This document shows positions 44,101 through 63,400 of a DNA stretch of 64,000 nt, piece by piece. The notes below the pieces were generated by a model. The model did not search any database. It saw nothing but the letters and a program-made list of their open reading frames with translations, and had not been told where the DNA came from. The stretch lies in assembly GCA_025617745.1 (NCBI GenBank), contig CM046870.1:6077618-6141617 (forward strand). Direction: 5' to 3'. The DNA is from Heliocidaris erythrogramma (taxonomy: Eukaryota; Echinodermata; Echinoidea; Camarodonta; Echinometridae). The translations under genes and the position numbers were made by a program. Position 1 is the stretch's first letter. Each line of letters starts with the position of its first letter.

Positions 44101-47100
44101 CTACTACCACCACCTCATCTTCATCCACTCTCCCTCCTCCACCCCTCACACCGACCACGCCCCAAACACTGTCCTTCGCTTCCCTCTCAACGACCACTAC
44201 CGTCACACCGGCGACCCCCACCACGCCGGCCCCTCCCGTCACCCCAGGGGTGTCGTCCATCACCACCGCCCCCCTCTCCTCCCTCTTCCCTACCCGTGAG
44301 AAGGACGATAGCAAGCCCAAGAGGTACCTTCCTACCGGTCTGACTCATTTCAATAACTACTCGGTGGTGGACTGCAGGAGTTTGGTTAAGACGGTGGTGT
44401 GTGGCGTTAAGACCATCACGTGGGGTGTTAGTGCCTGCAAGGTCTCATCAGGTTAGTGTACAAAGACATTAGTGAGGGCGTTAGTAAGAATTATTCACAA
44501 AAGCTTACCTATGGAACAGTCCAGCACTTTGGAAGGTACCGAGGGTGGATGATTAAACTAATGCCCAAACAAATGATTTGTATATTCGTTTGATGAAATT
44601 GTGATGAGAATCGTTGTCATTTGATGAATTACCCTCATCCCAGATTTCATTGACTTTCAAAGTTAGATCTAAACGATTAACCAGCTGGTCATGAAAAAAT
44701 TGCTAATGACCGGTTATGCATTAGAAAAAATAAATGCCTGGTCATTAGCATGTGTTCTCTTTCTTTTGAACATGATACATGTATCTTAAAGTGGCCTTGT
44801 CATGACTAAGTAGTCGAATAATTTGATGTGATTAGGTACAAATTTAAAAACTAAAAGGTATCGATACCGGAATACATTGGAAGGAGAATGAGGGCAGAGG
44901 TAAAATGATGACATATCCTGCTTTTCCTCCTCCTTTTATCGTTGCATACTGTAAACTTTTCTTCTGCAGATCGCTACTTAAGGGCTGTATCGTTTCCAAG
45001 ATGTGAAAGCTCATGATAAATATTACTATTCTGTGTACGTTTGCTTTAACAGATCCAAACCAGAACAAACAGTTTCATCCCAAAGAAACAGCGGTCTTCA
45101 TCAAGTTAGTCAAGCATGGTGAGTTGTAATACAATGTACATGTATCTCCTTTTGTTGAATACTTCAACTCTAACTATGTATTTGTAATGTCCAACTGTCC
45201 CTACTTGCTTTATTTGTTAGGATTAGGATATCTCATATTTCTTATTTGGAGATGTAATGTTGATTAGAGAGAGAGAAAGAAAAGAGAGGAATAAATAGCA
45301 ATATTTATCGTTCTTCTTTCAGCTTTGAAGGCCCTAGACATCTACCAGATCCAGATCTCACCCACGGGACAGACTAGTATAAGACCAGCCAACACTCAGA
45401 GTGTCAGACTCAAAGAGGAAAAAGAAGTCCTAGAACACTTTGCCGGAGTGGTATGTAGAATTCTCCTTATTACCCAGCTGTCAGTTATTCATTCTTAATG
45501 GAAATCCTGGACCCCACCTAGTAAACAGTTGCACTTGATTCAAATTGATCACAACTCTGTACTAAATTGATTGAAGTTTGTAAGTTTTTTTGTTGTTGAT
45601 TGGAGGACTTGCAATAAATCCTATTTGCACAAAAAATTTATCAGAAATCATAGACAAACCATAAAAAATATTGCATTGTAGTTGAACAATACAAGATTAG
45701 GTTTAACATGTTTCATTCCAAGTTCTCTTTTACGGTAGGATGCAAAAGTTAATGTCGTTTGCTTAGCAACCAGAGCGTCACTGTACTGCCCATTGCTGGA
45801 ATGCTCCCCAGGGGGTGGAGAATGTGCATACATTGTGTGCGGGCGTGCCAGAATCCAATGACCAGGGTAATAATATATATCTAGCGCTTTGGGCCACTTT
45901 GGGAAAGGCGCGTTATAAATGCCAGGTATTATTATTATTATTATTACTACCAGTACTGTCCATTAATTTTAAACTCTCTTTCTCGTTTATATTTACACAG
46001 TTCAACATGATGCACCCGTTGACTTTCCGGGAGATCTTCCAGACGACCATTGAATACATGGTGGAACGGATCTATAAGAACTATGCCTTACAGCTGATAG
46101 CTAACTCCTTCCTAGCCAATCTGTCAACGTCAGCCACGTTTGCTACCATCCTGGTGGAATACCTCCTGGAAAGGATGGAAGAGATGGGAAGTAAGTAATG
46201 CCCTGGGGGGTGTTTCATAAAGCTGTTCATAAAGTTACGCACAACTTTACAAATGACTTATATATGACAAGCCAAATGGGATGCTCAATCGTTTGTAACT
46301 GCATCAACTAAAGTTGAACTATGCAGATGTAGATTAACATTCTTATTATAACAAACATTTTTAATGCAAAGTATATTTTTAGCCATTTTTTAAATTGAGG
46401 TTATTGGAAAAACAGTCACTTTGTAAAAACATCAGGAAATATTTTGGGCATCCTATCTGGCACTTCATATTCAAGTCGTTCGTAAAGTCATGCGTAACTT
46501 TACAAACAGCTTTATGAAACACCCCCGTGGTTTGTCTATATCTTAACCCATTGAGCACTGAATTCTGTCATTCCCATAGACTTAATACAGGAGCCATATA
46601 GTACCTGTCGGCAATGGGTTAAATGCGCTATCAAGTTCTAGGAATGATGGAAACTAAAGATCTAACCAGTGAAAAAAATACTGTTTTGTTTACCAGGGGG
46701 GTGTTTCATAAAGCTGTTCGTAAGTTACGCACGACTGGTGATTAGTTATTGTGCTAAATGATTGAGAATCTGATTAGTATAGCACCCAAGAACATGTTCC
46801 AGTCGTTCGTGAAGTCATTCGTAACTTTACGAACAGCTTTATGAAACACCCCCCAGAGCTCTTTTGCAAATTTCCAGAGCTAAACTTTAGTGGTTTGTAA
46901 AAAATCAAACAGAAATTTACCATGAATGCTGGATCGGTATCTGTATATGTAATGTGAAATTGATTTAAATATAAGATGTTATTACCGATATAAGGCATTT
47001 TAGCGGCGCATTAAAAAAGCATATTTTTGTCCGCTTGATTTGCGCGTGCAATATGCTCTCATATTGCACGGAACGCTGAATTCCCCATAGGCTACAGTAC

Positions 47101-50100
47101 TAAACTTGCCGTGCAATATTATGCCGTATTTTGTCTGGTCTGTTTGTGTGCGCGCAAATAATGCAACGCATACACACATATGCACATGACGTCATAAAGA
47201 GGTTAAGTTAAACTTGTGTGATCACAATGAAGTATGATGAGGGGCTCTATTAACTGAATGTGGTTGGTTAAAATGATTTTTATTAAGTTCTAAATCATTT
47301 TCCTGTAGGGTATAGATAATAATAATTATATTGGATGGCTTTATTTCATGGAATACCAGAAATATTCCACTCGTTAGGGCCAATATTCTCTGGTATCCCA
47401 TTCAGAGCCATCCAATATAATATAAATATAATGTGATGTGTTTATTTGCGTTATTTTTTCATTACAGCTAATCAAGAACGTTCCAACCTGTATCTCAAAC
47501 TCTTCAAGCTAGTCTTCGGTTCAGTCTCGCTGTTTGCCAATGAGAATGAGCAAATGCTAAAGGTATGGAAAATATTTAGGTTAGAGTTGTGACATAATAC
47601 TTCTTTAAAATAGATGAATATATACATTGATGTAGATGAAATTGCATCAGTTATGGTATACAGAGGATAGTTTTACTTGCATAGCTCTGTAGTAATGTTT
47701 AGATATACCTTGGTGGATGCAGGAAGGAAGATATGTTTTAACTCTTTGTTAAATGATGTGAGTTAACGCCCTTTTAGCTCTCAAGAGATGATATTGATGT
47801 GCCTTGGTGATAAACCTTTGAAAGTATACATTGATATAAATGTATCCGTATTTGCCACTCATATACAGGTACTCAAACTACTCTTCTTTACATGTTATTG
47901 TGAGGGGATTATACCTTGCGACAAACCTGGACAGCTTAATTTCTATACATTAAATTTAGGATTGTATAAAGACTTTGTTCACTTGTGCTAACATTTAAAG
48001 CAATGAATAGTATTGATAAAAGATAGATCAGGTGAAAGAAATACTAATCGTTGATATTCTAATGTCAACATCCATCGAACATTACTTTCCCAAAATTTGT
48101 GTTTGATGAGTCTGTATCCTATGTGCTTATTTCAAGTGAAAATCATATCTGTGAACTAATCAATACATCATATGAATATTTATAGTTATTGTAACTATTT
48201 CCTATACTATAGCCTCATCTTCATAAGATAGTCAACTGATCCATGCATGATATGAATATTTATAGTTATTGTAACTATTTCCTATACTATAGCCTCATCT
48301 TCATAAGATAGTCAACTGATCCATGCATGATATGAATATTTATAGTTATTATAACTATTTCCTATACTATAGCCTCATCTTCATAAGATAGTCAACTGAT
48401 CCATGCATGATATATTTATAGTTATTATAACTATTTCCTATACTATAGCCTCATCTTCATAAGATCGTCAACCGATCTATGGAGCTTGCAACCACAGCCA
48501 AGGATCCTTACAACTACTTTCTGCTACTGAGGGCGCTCTTCCGCTCCATCGGTGGAGGCAGCCATGATCTCTTGTATCAAGAATTCCTGCCCCTTCTCCC
48601 AAACCTCCTACAAGGTATGTCACAGCTAGTTTCACACAGAAACTAAGAAAAATGCACTTATGGTGTCATTAATCTAAAGTGCATGAAGTGGACCTTTATC
48701 TGTTTATTGAAAAGATTTGTGCAAATTGGGGGTCATTTGTTACCATCTGCTTAATTCAAACTTGTTCTATTGTTATTGTTCATGTTTCAAACAATATGAA
48801 AGAGTATTGTATAAGCTGATACTTTCATGTAAGGATATTTTCATGGATGACGGACGCAGACATTTTTGTGAGTTGTTCTTACCACAACGATTAACATAGG
48901 CTAGTTACAATACATGTTCGCACATGTGTGCATTGTCAGTTCATATCCTTGCTTTGTTAAATTAATGATTCTACAACAATTCACATTTCACAGAATATGC
49001 GAAAATAAAAGAGTCTATTCGTCACCCTTGATGTAACTGTTGAATTATTTCATTTTTTTTTCTAGGATTGAACCAGCTGCAGAGTGGCCTTCACAAGCAG
49101 CACATGAAGGACCTGTTTGTTGAACTCTGCCTGACTGTACCCGTGAGATTGAGTTCATTGCTTCCATACCTACCCATGCTCATGGATCCGTTAGTCTCAG
49201 CCCTCAATGGATCACAGACACTTGTCAGCCAGGTGAGTTTTTTTCCTCCGCTCCAAAAAGTGGTTCTGGAGATGATATTTGTGCAGTGCATATTAAAGGG
49301 ATACGCCACCAGGCGGCCGTGGGGAAAGTCCAGATTGCGTAAGCCCCATTCACTCGTACACAAAGTTTGTGCGTCGACCCCGTCCGTTGGACTACTGGGA
49401 TTACATTTCGAACTGTTCGAAGTTTGCTCCCGCAGGGCAACGGCATGATCAGGTAACGATCACGGTGCCCTCTCGCGGCAAAAAAACATTCACAATCTGC
49501 GGTTGAGTATCCCTTTAAAGTCATGGCATAAAGGTAATGCCGAGTGCTGGTCTTGCAATTTCATTGTGAAAAGAAGGAATTTATCTGGAAGATATGCTGA
49601 ATGATTGATTCATGTCGTAATTTTATCATAAGGTTTTGGAATCATCAAAATTATAATAGGGCAGCTTTTCTAAAGCTACACAATGTAGGACACTAATAGT
49701 ACTTTGTAGATGCCTTGAGCATACCCTGGGATGGATATCTGCACAATAAATATAAATGTCTCTTCTCCCGATTACTACATGTATAAGGGACAGATGGCTT
49801 TCTTCAGAGATGATAGTTCTCACAGTGTAGAAAAGTCGATGAGAATACTTGAAATGAATATTTGAAATTAATTTTCATATACATTTACTTGACTGCAGGG
49901 ATTGAGAACATTGGAGCTGTGTGTAGACAACCTTCAGCCTGATTTCCTCTATGAGCACATCCAGCCAGTCAGAGCAGAACTGATGCAAGCCCTGTGGAGG
50001 ACACTGCGTAACCGTAGTGACCAAATCGCTCGTGTGGCATTCCGTGTCTTAGGCAAGCTGGGTGGAGGCAACCGCAAGATGCTGAGAGAACCGCAAAGGG

Positions 50101-50728
50101 TGAGTCAAAATGTTAATCCTTTCCTATTTTTTATTGTACTTCAGGGGAAAGTTAAAAATGTCTTTGCTATCTCTAACATTGATGAGTTTTGATTAGACAT
50201 TGTCAGTCTCCTGTTTTTTTTCAACATCACCTTTATTCATCAAAAAACAAAGGGAAGTACTAAATAAGTCCTAAAAAGGGTTAATGAGCTCTGCAGAGAG
50301 CTCTTTGGTTTCAAAGTTTCGATCAGTAAGCTGTGATGGTCTTCAGGAGAATCATACTGAGCATAACTGATCAAAATAATGAATGGTGAAACAACTAAGT
50401 TTCTCCACTGAAAAAAAATATCACTGATACTTCACCCACAAAGTCCAGGCTACTTTTTAAAAAACATTTTACCGGACTATATAAAACATGCAAATGATAG
50501 ATATGTGGTAAAACATAATACATAAAGACATGTTGTTGATCTGATCCTTTTTTTAGCTCTCATATGAAGATGATGAGAATGACGGTCCCTGCATCACCAT
50601 CCTCTTCCCTGATCACAAGACTCCAGTTCACTTACCGGTATCCAAGGTAACGAAGATAATCCAACTCAACCACCATATGCTCTTCCCTCATCCTTTGCAG
50701 GCTGTACTAGGGTGTAGTGTGGTGGTAG

Positions 50729-50769
<41 letters not shown>

Positions 50770-50870
50770 ATTATGATAATGGAGATGATGGTGATGGTGA
50801 TGGTGATGATGTTGAAGATGATGATAATAATGATGGTGATGATGATGATGGTGATGATGATGGTGATGAT

Positions 50871-50916
<46 letters not shown>

Positions 50917-51433
50917 GAAGATGATAGTGATGATGATGATGGTCATGATGATGATGATGATAATGAGGATGATGGTTATAATGATGGTGGTGATGATGAA
51001 AGTCATGATTATGATGATGATGATGGTAATAATGATGATGATGGTAATAATGAGGATGATGTTGAAGATGATGATAGTAATGATGTTGAAGATGATGATA
51101 GTAATGATGATGAAAATGATGATTATGAGGATGATGATGATGATAATGGTGACGATGGCATATGAAATTGCAAGTGAAAAACCAATGGTTTTGATGAGTC
51201 GATGAGTAATAAAGCTTGAGACAATACTTGTTTTGCCTATTCTAGGTGGTAGAGACTGCACTGAGTAAACTGACATCGCCAACCACCGATGTGTTCTACC
51301 GTCGTCAGGCATGGGAAGTCATCCGACATTTCATTGTTAGTATGCTCAGCTTAGGTGATGAACAGAGGACCATTCAGCAGTTGCTTTTCCACACAAGGTA
51401 AGTATCTTGTTAAGAACTCATGAGAGCCAAATA

Positions 51434-51467
<34 letters not shown>

Positions 51468-54400
51468 ATGATTTTATTCCTATTCCACATTTACAATGAA
51501 ATTACAACAATATGTACAAATTACAAACAGTGCAAAAACAAAGAATATATGGATATGACATAGAAAGATGACAAAAGGATATGTGGAGGGATCTACTAAA
51601 AAGCTCAGCTTGTTTGATGTAGATCCGCTAATCGAATAATGATACAATAATATGTGTTAAAAAAAAGAAATGATTTTCGTTTAATTAATCAAAGTAATTG
51701 TTTGAGAGGGAGAAAACGACTAAACAAAACATATGAACATTATATACAGTTGAGCTAACAATACAAAATAAGATTGATGAAATAAAAGAGATTTTGAGTG
51801 GAAATCAGTTATATGTGTTATATATAACTAATATAAAAAAGATAAATACAATATTATGGAATGAAAAGAAAAAATAAAAGCAGAGTGAATTATTTACATC
51901 AGTATAAATCAGTCGAGTGTTTCTTCACAAGATATTTGAACCTACTAAATTTAGGGGTAAGTTTTAAATTCTGTTCTAATGAGTTCCAATATTTAGGACC
52001 ATTGAAAAATATAGTTTTACTGGCAAAAGCTGTTCGAGTTTTGGGTAAATGATAATCGTTTGCTTGCCTGGTGTAATACCTGTGTAAAGTGCTGTTTTTT
52101 CCAAACAGTTGTTTCAAAACGAATGGCATATTATTTCTATCAAGATTGTACATGAAATGGTACAGCTGAAATTGATAAAGGTCATGAATTTTGAGAATAT
52201 GATTTTGGCGAAACAAAATATCAGTATGCGCTCTGTAAGATGTATGACATATAATTCTCAAAACCTTTTTCTGCAAGAGTGAAATTTTATCTAACCTGGA
52301 TCTTGCTGCATTTCCCCATGCTAATAAAGATGAGAGTTGAATATAACATCAGAAGTGCTGATAATGGAAGAACATGCTTAAGTTAATGAATGACTCCTTA
52401 TTAATATGAATAATGAATTAGTGTTATAGCTCCAAGTTGGCAACACTGATGTTTTACTTGTCCAGGATCCTGCATAACAATCTTCCCGTCTTCTATATAG
52501 TAACGCTCAGCCAAGATCAACTTTCTTTCAACCAATTATTCATACCCAGAATAATTTTTTTTTTAGGGTGACTATAAAAGAGTTAGTAGCTACAAAAGCA
52601 GCTGATTTCTGTAAACAGTCACTTGGCTGGACACAAAAACTAATCCATGCAAGAAAGTGGAGTAGATAGTAAAATTATTTTACTGTGATGTCACAGATAT
52701 AAAAAAAAATAGTAAAGGGTTCCTCTCTTCAAGTAGAAATATGTTTGATTAGGGGAAGTGCATTTGACCATTACATGAACAAGAAATTAAACTTTTTCTT
52801 TGAGGGATATAAGTAACTATTTCACTGGATAATAGTAAATGATATTGCATTAAAGATGATATTCATTTCTAATTGTCTAGCTTCCATGATGGTGAGATCC
52901 CGAGGACTACAAGTCATGCCTACAAATGCCATGATCAACTCTCTAGGATATGCTTCCAGAATGCATTAACATCTATGATAGGTGAGTGGTATCTTGGTTT
53001 TTTCCTTACAATGATAATAAAATTCCATTCTCGGGGAAGTCCAAGCTTTATAGCTCCATACATTACTGCACACATGAGAGATTACTGTTTTTTGGGGGGG
53101 TGATAGTATTGATTTGCAAGCCCTGCTAAAGCTTAAAGCTAACCAAATATCAAGAAAAAGGACACTTTTGATGACAATTTGTGTTCACTGTTCCACAATT
53201 CTTGGTAACGTATGGGACACCAAATGACCAAATACCTTGGAATTGCCCTCATGTATAATGCACAGCACACCATGGTATAACATCCCTATGCACTTCCAAA
53301 GAGCTTTAGAAATATGATAGGTATTATGTTTTTTCAATAGTGGACTTGTTTAGCATGTATGAAATTGTGAATTGAAATTGCTTCAGGAATTTATCAATAT
53401 TGGTGTAATTGGCAGTATTCAAATTTACCGTAGTTAACATGAGATCTAAATGGACTATATGTGAGAAACCCTGACTGCTTTCTTACAATATACAATTCTA
53501 TTGTTGAAATGAATTCTTTGTCTGAGAAATTTAAATATCTTATGGGGTGTTGCAAGAAAGTTGCGATTGATTGCAAGTTCCAACTGATCGGTACTGACCA
53601 ATCAAAATCATTGTTGCAAGCGCATCTTCTTGAATGGGCAGACCCTGAACCATTCAGAATGGCTGTTCCAATTTGCTTTACAATTTGCAGTCGATTGCAA
53701 CTTTCTTGCAACACCCCATTAGATACATAGACTTTGTAGAACGGTAAATACGACTATCCGTTGTGTAAACAGATATCATTGAACTATTGACATGAAAATA
53801 AGGGATTTGTAATCCCCCATGTGAGAAAAAACCAAAAAGGGAAAATGACATGATCCACACACTTAGTTGATTTACTTTATGACCATTAATTTACCAGACA
53901 CTGTTTAAGCCGATACTTTTGCAGATGAGAGGGACACAGACATTTTTGTAAGTTCATATTTCTGTGATAATCCCCTTATGATTCATGTTCGCATATGCAT
54001 TTCGACCCTACAACAATTCCCAAAATTCACAAAAAATAAAACCCTCATGAATGTAATGGCTTCTACAGTATATGAGTGATGTATTACCGTGAAGTACAAG
54101 TGTGTTCTCCTTCTCTTTTGATATAGTATCAGCTACCATCAAAGATCTCCGTCCTAGTTCGCTGCCCTTCATGATGAACGTAGTCAGGCACATTACACTG
54201 GTGGCTGTAGCTCAACAAGCAGGTAAATTAATGGTTGTAAGAAGTATGCTCTGACAACGATTGATCTGTGGGCAATTTCCTACTCTATCCGAATTCTTAA
54301 CTTACAGCCATGGACAAACGCTGTACCTAACCCTACCTCTAACTCCAAGCCTATCCTGAAACCCAAATTCAACCCAGCACTGTATTTTAGAAAAAAATTC

Positions 54401-57400
54401 TCGAGTAAATATTTTCTCACAAAATGGTCTGACCAGCCGGACTAGCTTGTAACACAAAACAAAATGGAAGAAAGAAAGACTGATAAGGGGGGGGGGGGGG
54501 TCACATAAGTTTCTGGACATAATTAGATTTCGTTTAATTTGTTTGTGCTTTTTAATTGTGAGATTTATGTATTTCCATGATAGTACAGAATGAAAACAAT
54601 TATATAGATTCTCCTGAAAGAGTTTACAAGGGAGAGAAAGAATTTCATTTGTTCTAAATCAGAACGCTCTGTTCCTCTTCTAGGTCCGCTTCCTACAGCT
54701 CACAGTCGTCAGAAGTCACTGAACGATAACATGGACCCTCATGTATTGGTTGATGCTATATCAGCCTGCATGGCCCACGAAGAGAAGGAACTCTGCAAGA
54801 CTGGCCAACTTGCTATGACAGTCATCGTGGAGACGGCTGCCGCTGTGATGGGCAGTAAAGCTAGGGTGAGTTATTAAAGATTTGTTTTGTTTTTACTTCA
54901 GGTGCTAAGAAAACGAGTATATTATTTATGGCTTTCTGATACCGTGATATGCAGACAGGCAGAAATGTTCACAATTTTTGATAGTATTCAAATGATAGAA
55001 GCATTCTATTAAATTGAATTGAACTGAACTGAAGTTATTGATTTATCTGCCATTGCAACAGAAATCATCTTTCGATTATTCATAAAAAAATCACAACAAA
55101 GTAACGCAGAACAGGGAAGTGCAAAGAAAATCAAGACTTTGATTACAAATTTTCAAAGAATCATGTTTCTCTGTTATCTCTTATAGGCATGTCAGCTATC
55201 CATCTTTGAGTACGTTGCTGATCGCATGTGTAACTGCTGCTATGAACGGGCCTGGTATGCCAAGCTTGGTGGATGCATCGCTATCAAGTTCATGATGGAG
55301 AACATGGATATGTGCTGGGTACAGAGTCATCTTTATCTATTCCTCAAGGCACTTCTCTTTGTCATGATGGATCTTACTAAAGAGGTGAGTGAAAATATAA
55401 AGAATATTTCTTTTCAATACTTTGAATATAAATTCGACTAAATTGATATAGTATTAAAAGAAAAGTATAAATTTGACTAAATTGATATAGTATTAAAAGA
55501 AAAGTACAGCGCATGTCACATTGTGATATAGCGCCCATATTCATATTTGATAGGGTTTGCGAATTATTACCCTAACTTTAATTCCTGCAGCCATTATCAG
55601 CACTTTGTGCACCTCAAGGAATAAGTCCTGCCAAATACCTATTTCACACATGCATGGAGAGAGAAAACTAGATAAAATGCCTTGTCTAATGACATATGCA
55701 CCGAGCAGACGCTCGAATCCTCAACTTATTGATTTAGATTCAAGTGAATGAACAGCTATTCCACGATTCTCCCTCACAGAACACAATAGAACCTTCAGTA
55801 ACAAATTACAGGGTTACAAGCACAGGGGTTTTCAAATGTTTAATTGTAGGGTAAAAAATTGTCAGCACCATTGGCATGTAAAGTTCAGGTTGTTTGTGGT
55901 TTGTGGTTTTAAACTTGATGAAATGTTAACATGTCACTGTACTTATATCAGCTCTCCTTGTGGTTCCAAGCGATAATGAGTTCTACATTTAATAGATTGG
56001 ACAGTCAACCTGTGCGACACGTCGAGTCTTCTCCACTCTCAACCTTCTCATCTGGTTTACAGTCCTTTTCAGGACTTCACACTTCAAGAAACATTACTTC
56101 TACATTCTCTGAATTTCTATCTCGCCTTTCCTTTTCTTCTCTTCTCAACTTTTCTCCACTTTCTTCTTCTTACTCAATAGTCCTTTTCAGGACTAACCAC
56201 ATGGTGAACCGTAAGCCTTCTCCATGTTATCAGTACCACCATGCAAACCTCTACCTTCAAAGATCGTCTAGATTGTACTAATTTGATGAAATTTCTGTTC
56301 AGTGAGAATGATTGAATTTTTGGAGTATGTTATTCTCGCACCTTTGCATTTACATTGCAGGTATCGAGTGGAGCTTTGAATATGGCTAAGAGCAACGTGG
56401 ATCTTGTGTTGAAGCTCTGTGCCACCCCACCCACAGGAGCAGATGCGGAGAATCCCAAGCTAGCGGTAGCCCAACAGAAAGCTTTCCATGATGTCACCAG
56501 GGAGCTGGTCAGGGAAGTCACCTCACCTAACCAGACGGTCAGAGAACAGGTATAAACTGGGATTAAACTAGTGGAGGGGGTGTCGAGGGGGAGGGGAAGT
56601 TGTAGGTCATAGGTCATAGATGTAGAGAACCAAAAAGCTACATTAGCTTTAGCTCAACAGAAAACTTTTCAGGATGTCACAAGGGAGTAAGTCAGAGAAG
56701 TCACGTCATCCAACCAGACTGTCAGGGAACAGGCATATGTTGGGGAGGAGAAGGGGAGGTCATAGGTCATACATGTAGGTCAAAGGTCATAAGGGGAGGT
56801 CATAGGTCATACATGTACATGTAGATCATAGACTGTAGATGTAGAGAACCATAAGCTAGCTGTAACTCAACAGAAAGCTTTCCATGTCACCATGGAACTA
56901 GTCCATTATTTAATGTAGTTAAACCCTGTTAACTGGTAATATTATGTTTTTACTTTTGTGTATATCTACTCTCTAAAGGAATTAATGTCTTTATTATTGT
57001 GTTTTCATGTAAATCAGGCGATGGATTCCCTGCGATGGCTTGCAGACTTCACCAACAAAAAAGTAATGGAGATCATGTCTCCCCACAAGGAGGTCCTGGC
57101 AGACATGATCCCTCCTAAGAAGCATCTGTTACGTCATCAACCTGCCAACGCACAGCGAGGGTTGATGGACAGTAATACGTTCTGTACGACGTTAGAACCA
57201 AGGCTGTTCACCATGGATCCAACCATACCAGAACACAAAGTTTTCTTCACTGAGGTAAATAATTTACAATATTCTATGTAATGTCAATGCTACTGTATCT
57301 TTCTGTGTAATAGACCGCTTCTGTAATATATTCAAATTTATGCACATATATTCTCTGAGCACGTAGTGACGAGCTATTCCATTAATCTGCTTTTTATAAA

Positions 57401-60400
57401 TGAGCCTCAGTTCTTGGAATCCAGTTTGCATACATTACTTGTTGCTATGTCTGGCAAGCTTTCAGGTTGTCAAGAACAACCTTTGAAAGGTATGTATAAA
57501 ATTTGCATACATTAACGAAGCAGTCTATTGATCATTTATTATGCGCATAATAGAATGAAATAATTTTGCCTCTACCTGTTTGGCAAATTATTTATCATTA
57601 TTTTCATAGTACACTGTATGAATGACATCAGTGTTTTGCAGTATTTATTATCATTATTTCCTTTCATTTGGGTAATAATCTTTTTTATTGAATGAAGATG
57701 AATTGAAGGCCAGTATTTAGCGCTTCCAAAAAATTGGGCGGTTCAAGAAAAGAATGCTCCCACTTAATCTCTGAAGTACATACGAGAGATCGATGTTGTT
57801 GAATTATCACACTTTTTCTGGTCTTGTACAATCTTCAGTTAATTTGACTCCATTGTTTCTTTACTATTAGCTGATGAACCTTTGTGAGACTGAGGACTCG
57901 GGACTTGTCAAGCTGCCGTGCTACAAGGCAGTGCCGACCCTCGTGCCTCTACGCATCAGTGCTCTTAGTAAGTTATCACCTTTCCTTCCATTGTTACCAG
58001 TACATGCACAAACATGATCTTCAACAATTTAGTGCCATCTGTGCAACTCAACTATGATGATATTGGTGGCTTCTTATATAGCACTCCTGACTATCATGTC
58101 ATAATGCTCCTGAAGCTCAAATTATTTTTGAAAAGTTGGTTTGTCAATGCGTATGAATATTCAATAACGTTTGTCCGCCTGGTCGGGGGTGGGGGCGGGG
58201 GGGATGTCAGTGAACAACTTTGGTCTGCAAGTTGGGAGACCACTCAAAATAATTGTGACTTGCCATTATTTTCAGAACCCACATTATTTTATGCACATTT
58301 GAAGAAAGGAAATTATCATTGTTAACTTTGTTAACTTATCATATGATTTACTTTTAAAATTAACACAATTGATGGAGAAATTGTGAGAATCACAATTTTC
58401 ATAATTATTTACTTTGATTGTAAATTTAGAGTAGTTTTACAAGTGCACGTCTTTAACGAGATTACTTCCTTGTATCTTGTCTAGATGCTCTGGCAGCATG
58501 TCGCTACATTCCTCAGGCCAGGGAACGGATCTTCAAGATTCTCTTCAATGCTCTCAACTCTAACGTGAGTGAACTTCAAGAGGCTGGAGCCAAGTGCATG
58601 GAGAAGGTAAGTCGTAAAACTTTGGTCTAAGGTTGTATGTTTGCATTGGTTTGATAGGAGATCTAGAAACAAAAAGACAAATTCATGTCAAAGGAAAAGT
58701 CCACTCTGGCATTAATTTGGCTTAAACAAAAACATTAAAAAGTAAAGAAGCAGATCACTGAAATTTTGAGGAAAATGCAATTAAAAAATGAGAAAAATAT
58801 GAGTTTTCATAGTCGTTATCAATCATATGTACTTGGCGCTCTGTGACATGGCTTTTGAACACCTTTCCCATTGGCTCTCTACTAAAAAAATCATGACTTT
58901 CTATTTTTTCAAAAGAAAATATTTAATTCCCCATGTACCCTAGGTATGATTTATTGCACATATGTTTTTTACACAACACCTGTATGAAATAGATCTAAAT
59001 TTAAGAAATTTTCAGTACAAAGTAAAATATGTGATTTTTTTTTGTGCGACTGTGTTTAATGTTTTTCTAAATGGAAAATAAAAAGACTGATAAGTTACTG
59101 TTTTCTCCTTCTTCAGTTCATTGCTGGTCAGCCTGTGGAGATGGAGTTGGTGCATACCAGTGTCCGTCCACTGCTCCTAATGTTAGGTGATCATCGGACA
59201 TTGAATCTCAACGTCATTCAGAGACTACACAGCCTTACACAGCTCTTCCCGAATGCCTTCAATGAGAAACTCTGTGAACAGATGCTGGTAAGCATACATC
59301 TCCAATGTCATCTGTGACTTGACATTTGCTCCAACAACAATTGCTCCAGGCTTTATTTGATCAACTGCGTAAGGTTAGGGATAGGGTTGAAATTAGGTTT
59401 AGATTAGTTTTAGCGTTAGGATTAGGTATAGTGTTAGCAACAGGTGTTGAAGTCAGGAATGTGACTGCAGAGCAGTTGTCGCCAAAACCACATCTCGTAG
59501 AACCCTTAATGAGAGAAATTGATAGATATATTGATAGATGGTTATTAATGTTGCCCACATGTACATGTATATGATTTTCTTTTTATGTGACAATGCACCT
59601 ACATGTAGCTGTTGCCGAAGCCTTATAATGAAAACAAGTTCCTTCTATTCAAGCAAGTAATTGTTAGTTATGAGTAAGCATTTGCTTGCATGGAGAATGT
59701 ATTTGTTTTTGTGTGCTTGACATGGCTAGGCTTTTGCCACATGTAGTTGGGGCCCCTATATGAGGATGTCGTTTTCTTGTATTACTAGGGTCATCTGAAG
59801 AAGTGGCTTGAGACCACTGTGATCAGCCAAAAGAACGGTCAGAAGTCAACGGACAGTCTCAAAATCTGTACAGCCATCCTCAACATATTCCATGCCATTC
59901 CTGCTGCATCGGCAAAGATCCTGGAACATCTCCTGACTCTGGTCATCAAGGCTGAAGGAGCTCTCAACATGGAGGTAATATTATCAATAGAATCATCATG
60001 ATGCAAGATAACATTTCATTATTATTATTATGATGATGATGATGATAATGATGATGATGATGGTGATGATAATAATGGTTGTATAGTAGTGATGGTGATG
60101 ATAATGATGATGATGACGATGGTGGTGGTGATGGTGATGATGATGATGATGATGATGATGATGGTGATGATAATAATGGTTGTATAGTAGTGATGGTGAT
60201 GATGATAATGATGATGACAATGATAATGATGATGATGACGATGATGATGGTGATAATGATGATGATGATGATGTTGATCGGCCATATTTACCCAGGTTAG
60301 CCCCATCATTATTGATACTGTTCTCCCTGAGGACCCTGCACTCATATTATTACCCCAGCTTTAGCCGACCTACTATGATAAGGTGCTTAAGCTTTCAGAA

Positions 60401-63400
60401 AATTTCTTACTACCGGATACCCATTTAGCTCACCTGGGTGGAAAGTGGCAAATGTAGATTAATGTCTTGCCAAAGGATGTTAGTGCTGTGGCAGGGACTC
60501 GTGAGCTTTACAGTCCGTTAAATTTTCCACTTGACCAAAACACCTCCACAATACACTTTGAAGTGACATAGGATATCCTTTATGACATTTGCTTAACTGC
60601 TCTGACTTCAGTCATTTAAATTCAGAGTCAAAGTTCAAGGGTCTGATGTTGTTCTGTACAGGTTGGGAGTCCATTCCGTGAGCCTCTGCTGAAGTACCTC
60701 TTACGCTACGCTCAACAAACAGTGGATCTGTTCCTACAGGAGAACAACCTCAAGAATCATCAGCTCAGTCGCATGTTCAATGTAAATATCTATTTTTTTT
60801 TTTTTTACGTACTTCAATTATAATATGGTCAATGATGTCTTTATTATACTGTAAAAAAAAAAAACCAGACTTTCATGACTTGAAACTTTTGCGATATTGT
60901 TTAAACGACAGCGATTTTCGCAGCAAGAAACTTTTGCCAATAGCAAAATTCAATTTTGTGTCAGTCATGATTAAATTAATATGCGACGTGAAACTTTTGC
61001 AAATCTTAACCACTCGCGAAATTTGGACTTACATTACCATGCTTCGTAGTAGTAGTTTTCAGTGTTTATATTCTTTCTTCTTCTAAAAGTTCATATCAAG
61101 CTGAACATGTATTTTTGGTTTAAATTCACTGTTTATAAAATAGTCTTGGATGATTTCTGCAATGTGTGTTATAATAGGAGTTAAAGCTAATCGTTCTGGG
61201 GCCCGTTGCACAAAGAATTGCGTTTAAACGGAACTCTTAAAATCAAACACAAGTCCTTAATGCGCACTTCTGAAAATAAAGTTGTTTGATTTCCCCCGAG
61301 TTCCATTCAAACGCACGTTTTATGCAATGGGCCCCTAGTAATTAAATTGTATTTCTAGAGAAGTTGGTTTAAAATTTGAATTGTTCATCAGATGGGTTAC
61401 TTGGACCAGAAAAATATCAACAAATGAATGAAACCATGCTAGAAATCACATTTCCTGGAAAGCACAACAAACATTAGTGCATACATGTAAAGACCATTTG
61501 GCACGCACGGACAAGGCTTTAGTGTGCAGTAATGAATGATTGCGACTGATTTCTCTATGCACAGTACCTGTTGAAGCATGAGTTAGCCGAGCCTCTGAGA
61601 TCAGCCATTCAGAAGAACCCAAGCAAGCTCATCAACCTTGCATTCAGTAAGACACAGGTGAGTTCTTATCCAAATCATCAAAAATTCAGTTGTTAAGATT
61701 ATTAAGTTGAATATCGATCATTGCATCGTTATAGAGACTGTCTAAAATCAATTTGGAAAGGTTGATAATCTAGTAGATTAGTAGTAATATGAATTAATTA
61801 ATGTATGTTTAAGGTATTGGAACCATGAAGGTCATGACAAATTGACTCAATCTTCCTGAAAGTCACATGCAATGAATAGCATTGCACACAGACACAGATT
61901 TGAGTAGTTGGGACTACGCACACATTTGGCATCAAAATTCTGTTCAATGTCGTTATCAGGTACATGTATACTACTGTATTTGTTGTAATTGGTAACGTAT
62001 AGGACAAATTAACTTGGACTTGCCTGTGTACGATCTGGATCTGCTATAGTTATATGCATGTCTATGTACATGTATGTATGTGTGTGTAATTGGGTTTTTA
62101 CAGACGTGTATCAATCAGATATGATTATTTACGTCTGGGACCGACCTTTAACGTAACCGTCCGTAACTCAGTCTCAAACCTGGGTCCGCTGAATCAGTTT
62201 ATGACTTCCACTGTTAGCTGGATTACAGGCGCACGCCACAACGCCCAGTGAAATGCATAAAATATGTATCTCTTATATTTTCAAACCTCTTACAGCCTCC
62301 AGCTCGCCCAACAAACTCTGGAGAGAAGTTTTTATTGGAGCTTCAGTACCAGTCCATTCGTATCTGTGCAACCCTGGTGAAAAATGACAAGGAATGGCTT
62401 CCGCAAACACCCACTGTGGTAAGACCAAGATCTCACAAGTTACTGTTTAGTAATATCTGTTCTAACAAGATATCCACCTGTATTAAGCAGGGACTAGGTC
62501 TAAATAATCAATATTTCTCGCTGATGTCACATGGGAACTTTAATTTTAACTATCCCAAAATAACTTGAATTGTTTTCATTACTTTGAAATATGAGCTGTA
62601 TCCTGAATCCTGTATTTTAAAATAACTGTAACCCCTACTCTGTTTGGCTATGTGGAACTCCTTTGGGAGGGGAAGGGGCTAGACTTGAGGGATTTCCTCA
62701 GAATTTACACTGATTTCCAAAAGTATGAAACAAAAAAAAAATGATTTTCATAAACTTTTTTTGTGAAAAGATGTACAAGACCTGTTGAAAAAGTCAGAAA
62801 GGGTTTTTTTTTGTTTGTAAGATGCACTCAAATTTATCTTAAGGGACTTCCCAGCCCCCCCCCCCCCCCTTCCCCTGCACTGCATACTTTGGTGGTAGGG
62901 GTCCAGTAGATGTCAATCATTTTCAAATTAATAGGGATAAAAGAAGTGCCATATTTATAGAGACTGGAATTGATCCTATTTCGTTTACAAAGCTTATGTT
63001 CACCCATGTTTCTTCTTCGGCAGTTTGTTCATCTTCGTCGGATCTGGGTATCTGATGCATTCCAGGAGCGTCATCGTCATGACAACCAAGGTGTGCATCA
63101 CTGGGAGGAACCTAAACTTCTCGTCAAGTGTTTGCTCAACTATGCTCAGTAAGTAAAGAAATCATAGTAGTTCCGAATTTTCTAAAGGTCAGAATGAATC
63201 AGCTTTGCCTCCTCAGTTATCCTTCCCTTTCTCTTTCACATATTTTAAAACAAATAAAAATAGATATTAAGTGAACCAGTGTGAATAGAAAGTACAGAAT
63301 GGAACAAAAAAAATTGCCACTTGATAAACAAAAATAGTGATTTTGAATTGCACTTTGCTTTGCCAATTTAGACTTTAATGCTTATTTTCATTTTTTTTTT

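Follow-up and report, generated by a model that had tools for sequence, protein, structure and literature searches.

The window, the whole 64,000-nucleotide stretch of DNA that was analysed, carries exons of a TRRAP gene on its forward strand. One intron of this gene ends in a tandem array in which three decoy acceptors precede the true one. The array and the two exons that enclose its intron are laid out as follows:

47468..47562, forward strand: preceding TRRAP exon (...FANENEQMLK), with the donor AAG/GTATGG, its GT at 47563
48151..48177, forward strand: left flank of the array, in exact register with the internal unit junction (48231-48257), with which it agrees at 22 of 27 positions; the final bases of the flank fall within unit U1 as defined here
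48169..48248, forward strand: unit U1, 80 bp, decoy acceptor with AG at 48211-48212, exon-start copy from 48213 and TGA at 48237-48239
48249..48328, forward strand: unit U2, 80 bp, decoy acceptor with AG at 48291-48292, exon-start copy from 48293 and TGA at 48317-48319
48329..48408, forward strand: unit U3, 80 bp, decoy acceptor with AG at 48371-48372, exon-start copy from 48373 and TGA at 48397-48399
48409..48448, forward strand: end of the intron with the true acceptor, AG at 48447-48448
48449..48614, forward strand: true TRRAP exon of 166 nt, PHLHKIVNRSMELATTAKDPYNYFLLLRALFRSIGGGSHDLLYQEFLPLLPNLLQ, with the donor AAG/GTATGT, its GT at 48615

The exon boundaries were set by visual inspection, guided by general knowledge of TRRAP, and afterwards compared with solved TRRAP chains. 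The exon at 48449..48614 contributes 55 residues that match human TRRAP with an E value of about 1e-28. Five exons (47468 to 50646), joined via the last acceptor, encode 239 residues that align to human TRRAP without a gap. A further join of five exons (54684 to 59287), from which one exon is missing, also aligns to TRRAP, here with two gaps of one residue each. Other exon pieces also align to TRRAP, three of them clearly and the exon at 62296 weakly (8.3 bits). The TRRAP gene thus looks intact where examined. Since the exons join and align to TRRAP via the last acceptor, this acceptor must, judging from the alignments, supply the working protein.

Several other features were noted in the window. 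An inverted repeat, TATATTGGATGGCT ... AGCCATCCAATATA, read by eye, occupies positions 47327-47419 just before the exon at 47468-47562 and looks like a small MITE-type element. The intron before this exon also holds two direct-repeat pairs that are about 91-92% identical (46466-46526 with 46793-46853, and 46202-46246 with 46693-46736). Tandem Repeats Finder reports long arrays of the ATG/TGA trinucleotide type between TRRAP exons at 50729-51157 and 60030-60278. On the minus strand, opposite to TRRAP, an open reading frame at 18867-19151 matches the Bardet-Biedl syndrome 5 protein (Pfam PF07289, E 1.8e-20).

Architecture and strength of the four acceptors

Tandem Repeats Finder describes the array at 48154-48481 as 4.2 copies of period 80 with 95% matches. 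Its score of 565 is the highest of the 32 rows returned for the window. A repeat search places successive units 80, 80 and 76 bp apart, the true unit being 4 bp shorter than the decoy units at its left edge. Each of the four units reads AACTATTTCCTATACTATAG/CCTCATCTTCATAAGAT, in which the presumed region of the branch point and pyrimidines is followed by the AG and the exon start, with CCTCATCTTCATAAGAT directly after the AG at all four acceptors. The two methods agree with the preliminary description, which had seen an intron end, an AG and an exon start repeated in tandem in a unit of about 80 bp, and the AGs of the three decoys (48211, 48291, 48371) and of the true site (48447) lie where it had placed them. 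The locus therefore contains in-register direct repeats of intron end, AG and exon start, that is, a tandem duplication across a 3′ splice site. The copy number is that of one assembled sequence.

A 29-nt pattern of the exon start and a 20-nt pattern of the branch region, each allowing up to three mismatches, were searched for across the window. Each has four matches, all within the array, against 0.00 and 0.01 expected, respectively, from 100 shuffles, which excludes an array formed by chance. Neither pattern has a further copy anywhere else in the window. An Rfam search gave 0 matches at gathering scores.

The four acceptors are identical from -20 to +3. U3 equals the true site over 54 nt (-37 to +16), and within this span U1 and U2 depart from U3 and the true site only at -22. 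With a matrix of 23 positions, derived from 11 further acceptors of the gene, each of the four scores 9.05, the scores being equal because the sequences are identical. The 11 acceptors themselves range from -0.3 to 10.2 when left out one at a time. Among the 53 AGs at 47600-48619 the array acceptors take ranks 1-4, and the next AG scores 5.1. A second matrix, limited to seven acceptors for which alignment to solved TRRAP gives firmer support, assigns them 9.8 and again ranks 1-4 of 53, with the next AG at 5.3. Both matrices are built from few sites of one gene. The first matrices include edges that the alignments do not support well (those of the exons at 54684, 59117 and 62296, together with the donor at 52982), and a donor motif at 46193 was left out of the donor matrix. 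By these measures each decoy AG is as good as the true one, as had been claimed.

RNA structure was considered as a selector of the last acceptor and rejected. A 7-bp hairpin at the presumed branch region is present in every unit, and the four units fold with no excess structure over shuffled sequences (z of -0.22, 0.30, 0.65 and 0.65). Folding of the whole array does not go beyond shuffles either (z of -0.28), and 39 of 100 shuffles fold as well.

Translation from each decoy yields ...NEQMLK-PHLHKIVN-stop, the TGA coming after eight codons (at 48237, 48317 and 48397). The reading PHLHKIVN then TGA, and the premature stop that decoy use would bring, are therefore as first described. Splicing via the decoys would produce an exon of 402, 322 or 242 nt in place of the normal 166. 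The extensions of 236, 156 and 76 nt leave remainders of 2, 0 and 1 on division by three, so that the second is in frame by length. The statement that decoys extend into the true exon only out of frame is thus incorrect, and it is the TGA that stops all three. Only the last of the four acceptors gives an uninterrupted protein, which upholds the view that splicing must favour it or tolerate decay.

The array also contains one passable donor:

48271..48276, forward strand: candidate weak donor ATT/GTAACT in the intronic part of U2, score 4.5

If paired with the U1 acceptor, it would delimit a cassette exon of 58 nt (48213-48270) that includes the stop. Each decoy, as well as this cassette, would introduce a premature stop on inclusion, as a poison exon does. 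For the 12 donors of the gene that are real or probable, scores run from 3.7 to 10.8 when they are left out one at a time, and two of them (3.7 and 3.9) lie below 4.5. Other GTs in this intron, with no known use, reach scores as high as 7.7; the 4.5 of the candidate is therefore not remarkable. It can pair with the U1 acceptor alone, and the same place reads ATAACT in U3 and in the true unit. After the U2 and U3 acceptors, no donor scores above 0.5 except the exon's own at 48615. A micro-exon or a new intron made from the GT in the exon copies was rejected, as those donors score -2.5; in the duplicated segment, the donor candidates for a new intron are this GT and the one at 48271.

History of the array and a second duplicated exon edge

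The units are not equally related. U1 equals U2 over 70 homologous positions (-37 to +32), and the two match without a difference from -43 to +57 about the acceptor. Of the 70 positions, U3 departs from them at a single one (-22), where it equals the true site. In each of the three decoys, the 33 nt of exon copy depart from the true exon at +17, +24 and +29. The change at +24 turns the CGA of the exon into TGA, and those at +17 and +29 are silent as codons. These three shared substitutions, along with the shared 4-bp difference from the true site, suggest that an older duplicate drifted and was then amplified. One duplicated unit thus probably existed long enough to diverge, with amplification coming afterwards. 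Homogenisation among the decoys would leave the same pattern as drift before amplification.

The preliminary description had proposed a recent origin and had based it on the near identity of the units. Both points hold in part. The amplification looks recent, with U1 equal to U2 and U3 one difference away, but the shared differences make the founding decoy older. Likewise, the near identity is strongest among the decoys, and the true site stands apart at +17, +24 and +29 and lacks the 4 bp. The proposal of a tandem array made by slippage or unequal exchange is supported.

All three differences between U3 and the true site fall in the last 16 of the 70 positions, an arrangement with p of about 0.01 if they were placed at random. 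Exchange or conversion between U3 and the true site would be a simple explanation of this clustering, and selection on used decoys would also explain it.

At the presumed breakpoints, the first 15 nt of the left flank are alike to the exon at 10 of 15 positions, which suggests that the duplication broke within imperfect similarity between intron and exon. When the intron was resampled with a first-order Markov model, 18 of 500 sequences matched as well as the flank does locally; the match draws its credibility from the exact register. An older, decayed fifth unit farther to the left was rejected: at 48131-48150, 2 of 20 in-register positions agree, and when the 80 nt are aligned globally, 353 of 500 shuffles do as well.

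A second duplicated exon edge is found in the same gene:

56361..56549, forward strand: TRRAP exon (VSSGALNMAK...NQTVREQ), source of the second duplication
56644..56737, forward strand: copy of the end of this exon with its donor, in the next intron, 82% identity
56837..56903, forward strand: a further and shorter copy of part of this exon, 80% identity

The longer copy carries 17 differences in 94 positions, including an in-frame change of CTG to TAA, and the donor CAG/GT of the exon reads CAG/GC in it. Among the 29 codons compared, eight show silent differences, and in five the residue changes or a stop arises. A survey of exon edges covered 1 kb upstream of 12 acceptors and 1 kb downstream of 12 donors. 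One acceptor and one donor have a copy, with scores of 125 and 55; the other 22 edges score 14-22. When 14 exon spans with 30-nt flanks were compared with the whole window, direct copies appeared for the same two only, and two other spans gave a 23-nt opposite-strand match in their flanks. On this sequence evidence, exon edges have been copied into introns of the TRRAP gene at least twice, once with visible decay. The second, decayed duplication favours an undirected process of general slippage over an evolved switch as the origin of the array.

Possible competition among the acceptors

The array is likely, though by no means surely, a by-product of slippage, in which the last acceptor makes the productive mRNA and the decoys are a tolerated cost, not an evolved switch. 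Its history may be pictured as follows. A segment of about 80 bp, containing the branch region, the AG and about 33 nt of exon, would have been duplicated in tandem, the duplication ending in the imperfect 15-nt similarity between intron and exon. The upstream copy, to judge from the differences that the decoys share, would then have drifted, and one of its codons would have changed from CGA to TGA, while the surroundings of its acceptor stayed, or were made, identical to the true site. Slippage or unequal exchange would finally have raised the number of decoys to three. In splicing, productive mRNA would arise via the last acceptor, the sole one directly before an intact exon. The decoys would bind U2AF and U2 snRNP and slow the removal of the intron, and some transcripts would pass through the decoys to nonsense-mediated decay.

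Work on duplicated sites bears on how such acceptors compete. Passages of a study of duplicated 3′ splice sites report that U2AF and U2 snRNP can bind both sites and that concurrent occupancy inhibits splicing (PMC5389562). For duplicated beta-globin sites of which the upstream one carries 14, 55 or 205 nt of exon, the same passages describe very inefficient splicing that uses the distal site only, and they cite an earlier report that the length of the proximal exon matters. In the excerpted text on a large library of equal-strength tandem 3′ splice sites 2-59 nt apart, there is no order preference (PMC6783452); hence nothing in the sites themselves would favour the last acceptor. A report on human BRCA1 describes a tandem duplication of intron end and exon start whose mRNA includes the duplicated sequence and a premature stop, and gives no amounts for other products (PMC11839443). 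Taken to this locus, the first result points to use of the last acceptor with a loss of efficiency, and the other two are compatible with decoys being used to a substantial extent.

Frequent decoy use is accordingly a reading to be weighed. In an equal competition, a large and fixed share of TRRAP transcripts would end in PHLHKIVN-stop and be degraded, and more transcript would compensate. The equality of the four acceptor sequences speaks for it, as do the lack of order preference at spacings of 2-59 nt in the excerpts of PMC6783452 and the BRCA1 duplication transcript in those of PMC11839443. The exclusively distal splicing of the duplicated beta-globin sites, as given in the passages of PMC5389562, speaks against it, and so do the lengths of the exons that decoys would create (402, 322 or 242 nt against 166). 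On balance this reading is unlikely. The copy number, for its part, might be an assembly error, with one old decoy real and the extra copies added in assembly. The identity of U1 and U2 from -43 to +57 is what such an error would leave, but the single base at -22 that sets U3 apart implies at least two decoy versions. Moreover, the three differences between the decoys and the true exon rule out, for at least one decoy, an origin as a duplicated haplotype of the true site. An error of this kind is therefore held to be improbable.

A poison-exon switch was put forward in the preliminary description. In a regulated form of it, decoy use or inclusion of the 58-nt cassette at 48213-48270 would have been selected to tune the dose of TRRAP. 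None of the three decoys has lost its in-frame TGA or its acceptor, and 48271 offers a passable donor, with two of the 12 donors of the gene scoring lower. Against this, that donor is weak, the only passable one and able to pair with the U1 acceptor alone; U3 and the true unit lack it, and GTs with higher scores occur elsewhere in the intron. The RNA structure is not beyond shuffles, and the second duplicated exon edge has the look of simple decay. Passages from the two papers that mention both TRRAP and 'poison exon' describe no such exon in TRRAP; one paper names TRRAP among genes whose exons affect the cell cycle, and the other includes it in gene lists within a section on the early loss of splicing control in ALS-FTD. 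A regulated switch is thus very improbable. Equally improbable, on present evidence, is a rheostat in which each decoy would add a U2AF/U2 site and a route to nonsense-mediated decay, so that copy number would grade TRRAP output and vary among individuals.

Comparison with known systems

Among the titles and abstract openings of word-matched open-licence literature, none describes a naturally occurring array with several identical 3′ splice sites. The closest natural case found is the RNA-dependent RNA polymerase (RdRp) gene of potato, in which, according to passages of PMC4974935, an intron was gained by tandem duplication across an intron-exon boundary. This is the same kind of event as the TRRAP array. 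Both are natural duplications of the branch site, the pyrimidine tract, the 3′ splice site and the exon start. In the same passages, differences between the potato copies form part of the authors' case that the duplication is real. The outcomes differ. In potato, the extra copy led to the gain of an intron whose donor came from exonic sequence farther upstream, with RNA-seq support, whereas TRRAP has three extra decoy copies that bear stops and a single passable donor that is weak.

The laboratory pre-mRNAs of PMC5389562 share with TRRAP the presence of identical 3′ splice sites in tandem, and in the beta-globin series, as excerpted, the upstream site carries a piece of exon of 14, 55 or 205 nt. 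Those constructs contain two sites, whereas TRRAP has four in a native gene, with an in-frame stop in the decoys. The partial duplication of human BRCA1 exon 10 likewise combines an intron end and an exon start with a premature stop. As described in the excerpts of PMC11839443, it spans 2,012 bp, adds one copy and is a pathogenic allele; the TRRAP unit spans 80 bp and has three extra copies in an otherwise open gene. Poison exons, and decoy exons that cause intron retention, resemble the TRRAP array in having non-productive intronic sites that could lower output. Of the marks of a poison exon, the TRRAP array has the premature stop, and the 58-nt cassette is a single weak candidate for a discrete exon; conservation and regulated inclusion would be further marks of such an exon.

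Read from its sequence, the TRRAP array belongs to a known kind of event, duplication across a boundary, but it has more copies and has turned out differently. Constructs with two copies are a common means of studying how 3′ splice sites compete. Here, a native conserved gene presents four acceptors that are identical over the part scored by simple splice-site models. What sets them apart is chiefly the exon sequence behind each of them and their order, and they offer a natural test of how a choice is made between identical sites. More generally, exon edges copied into introns may persist, decay or be amplified without an evident break in the gene.
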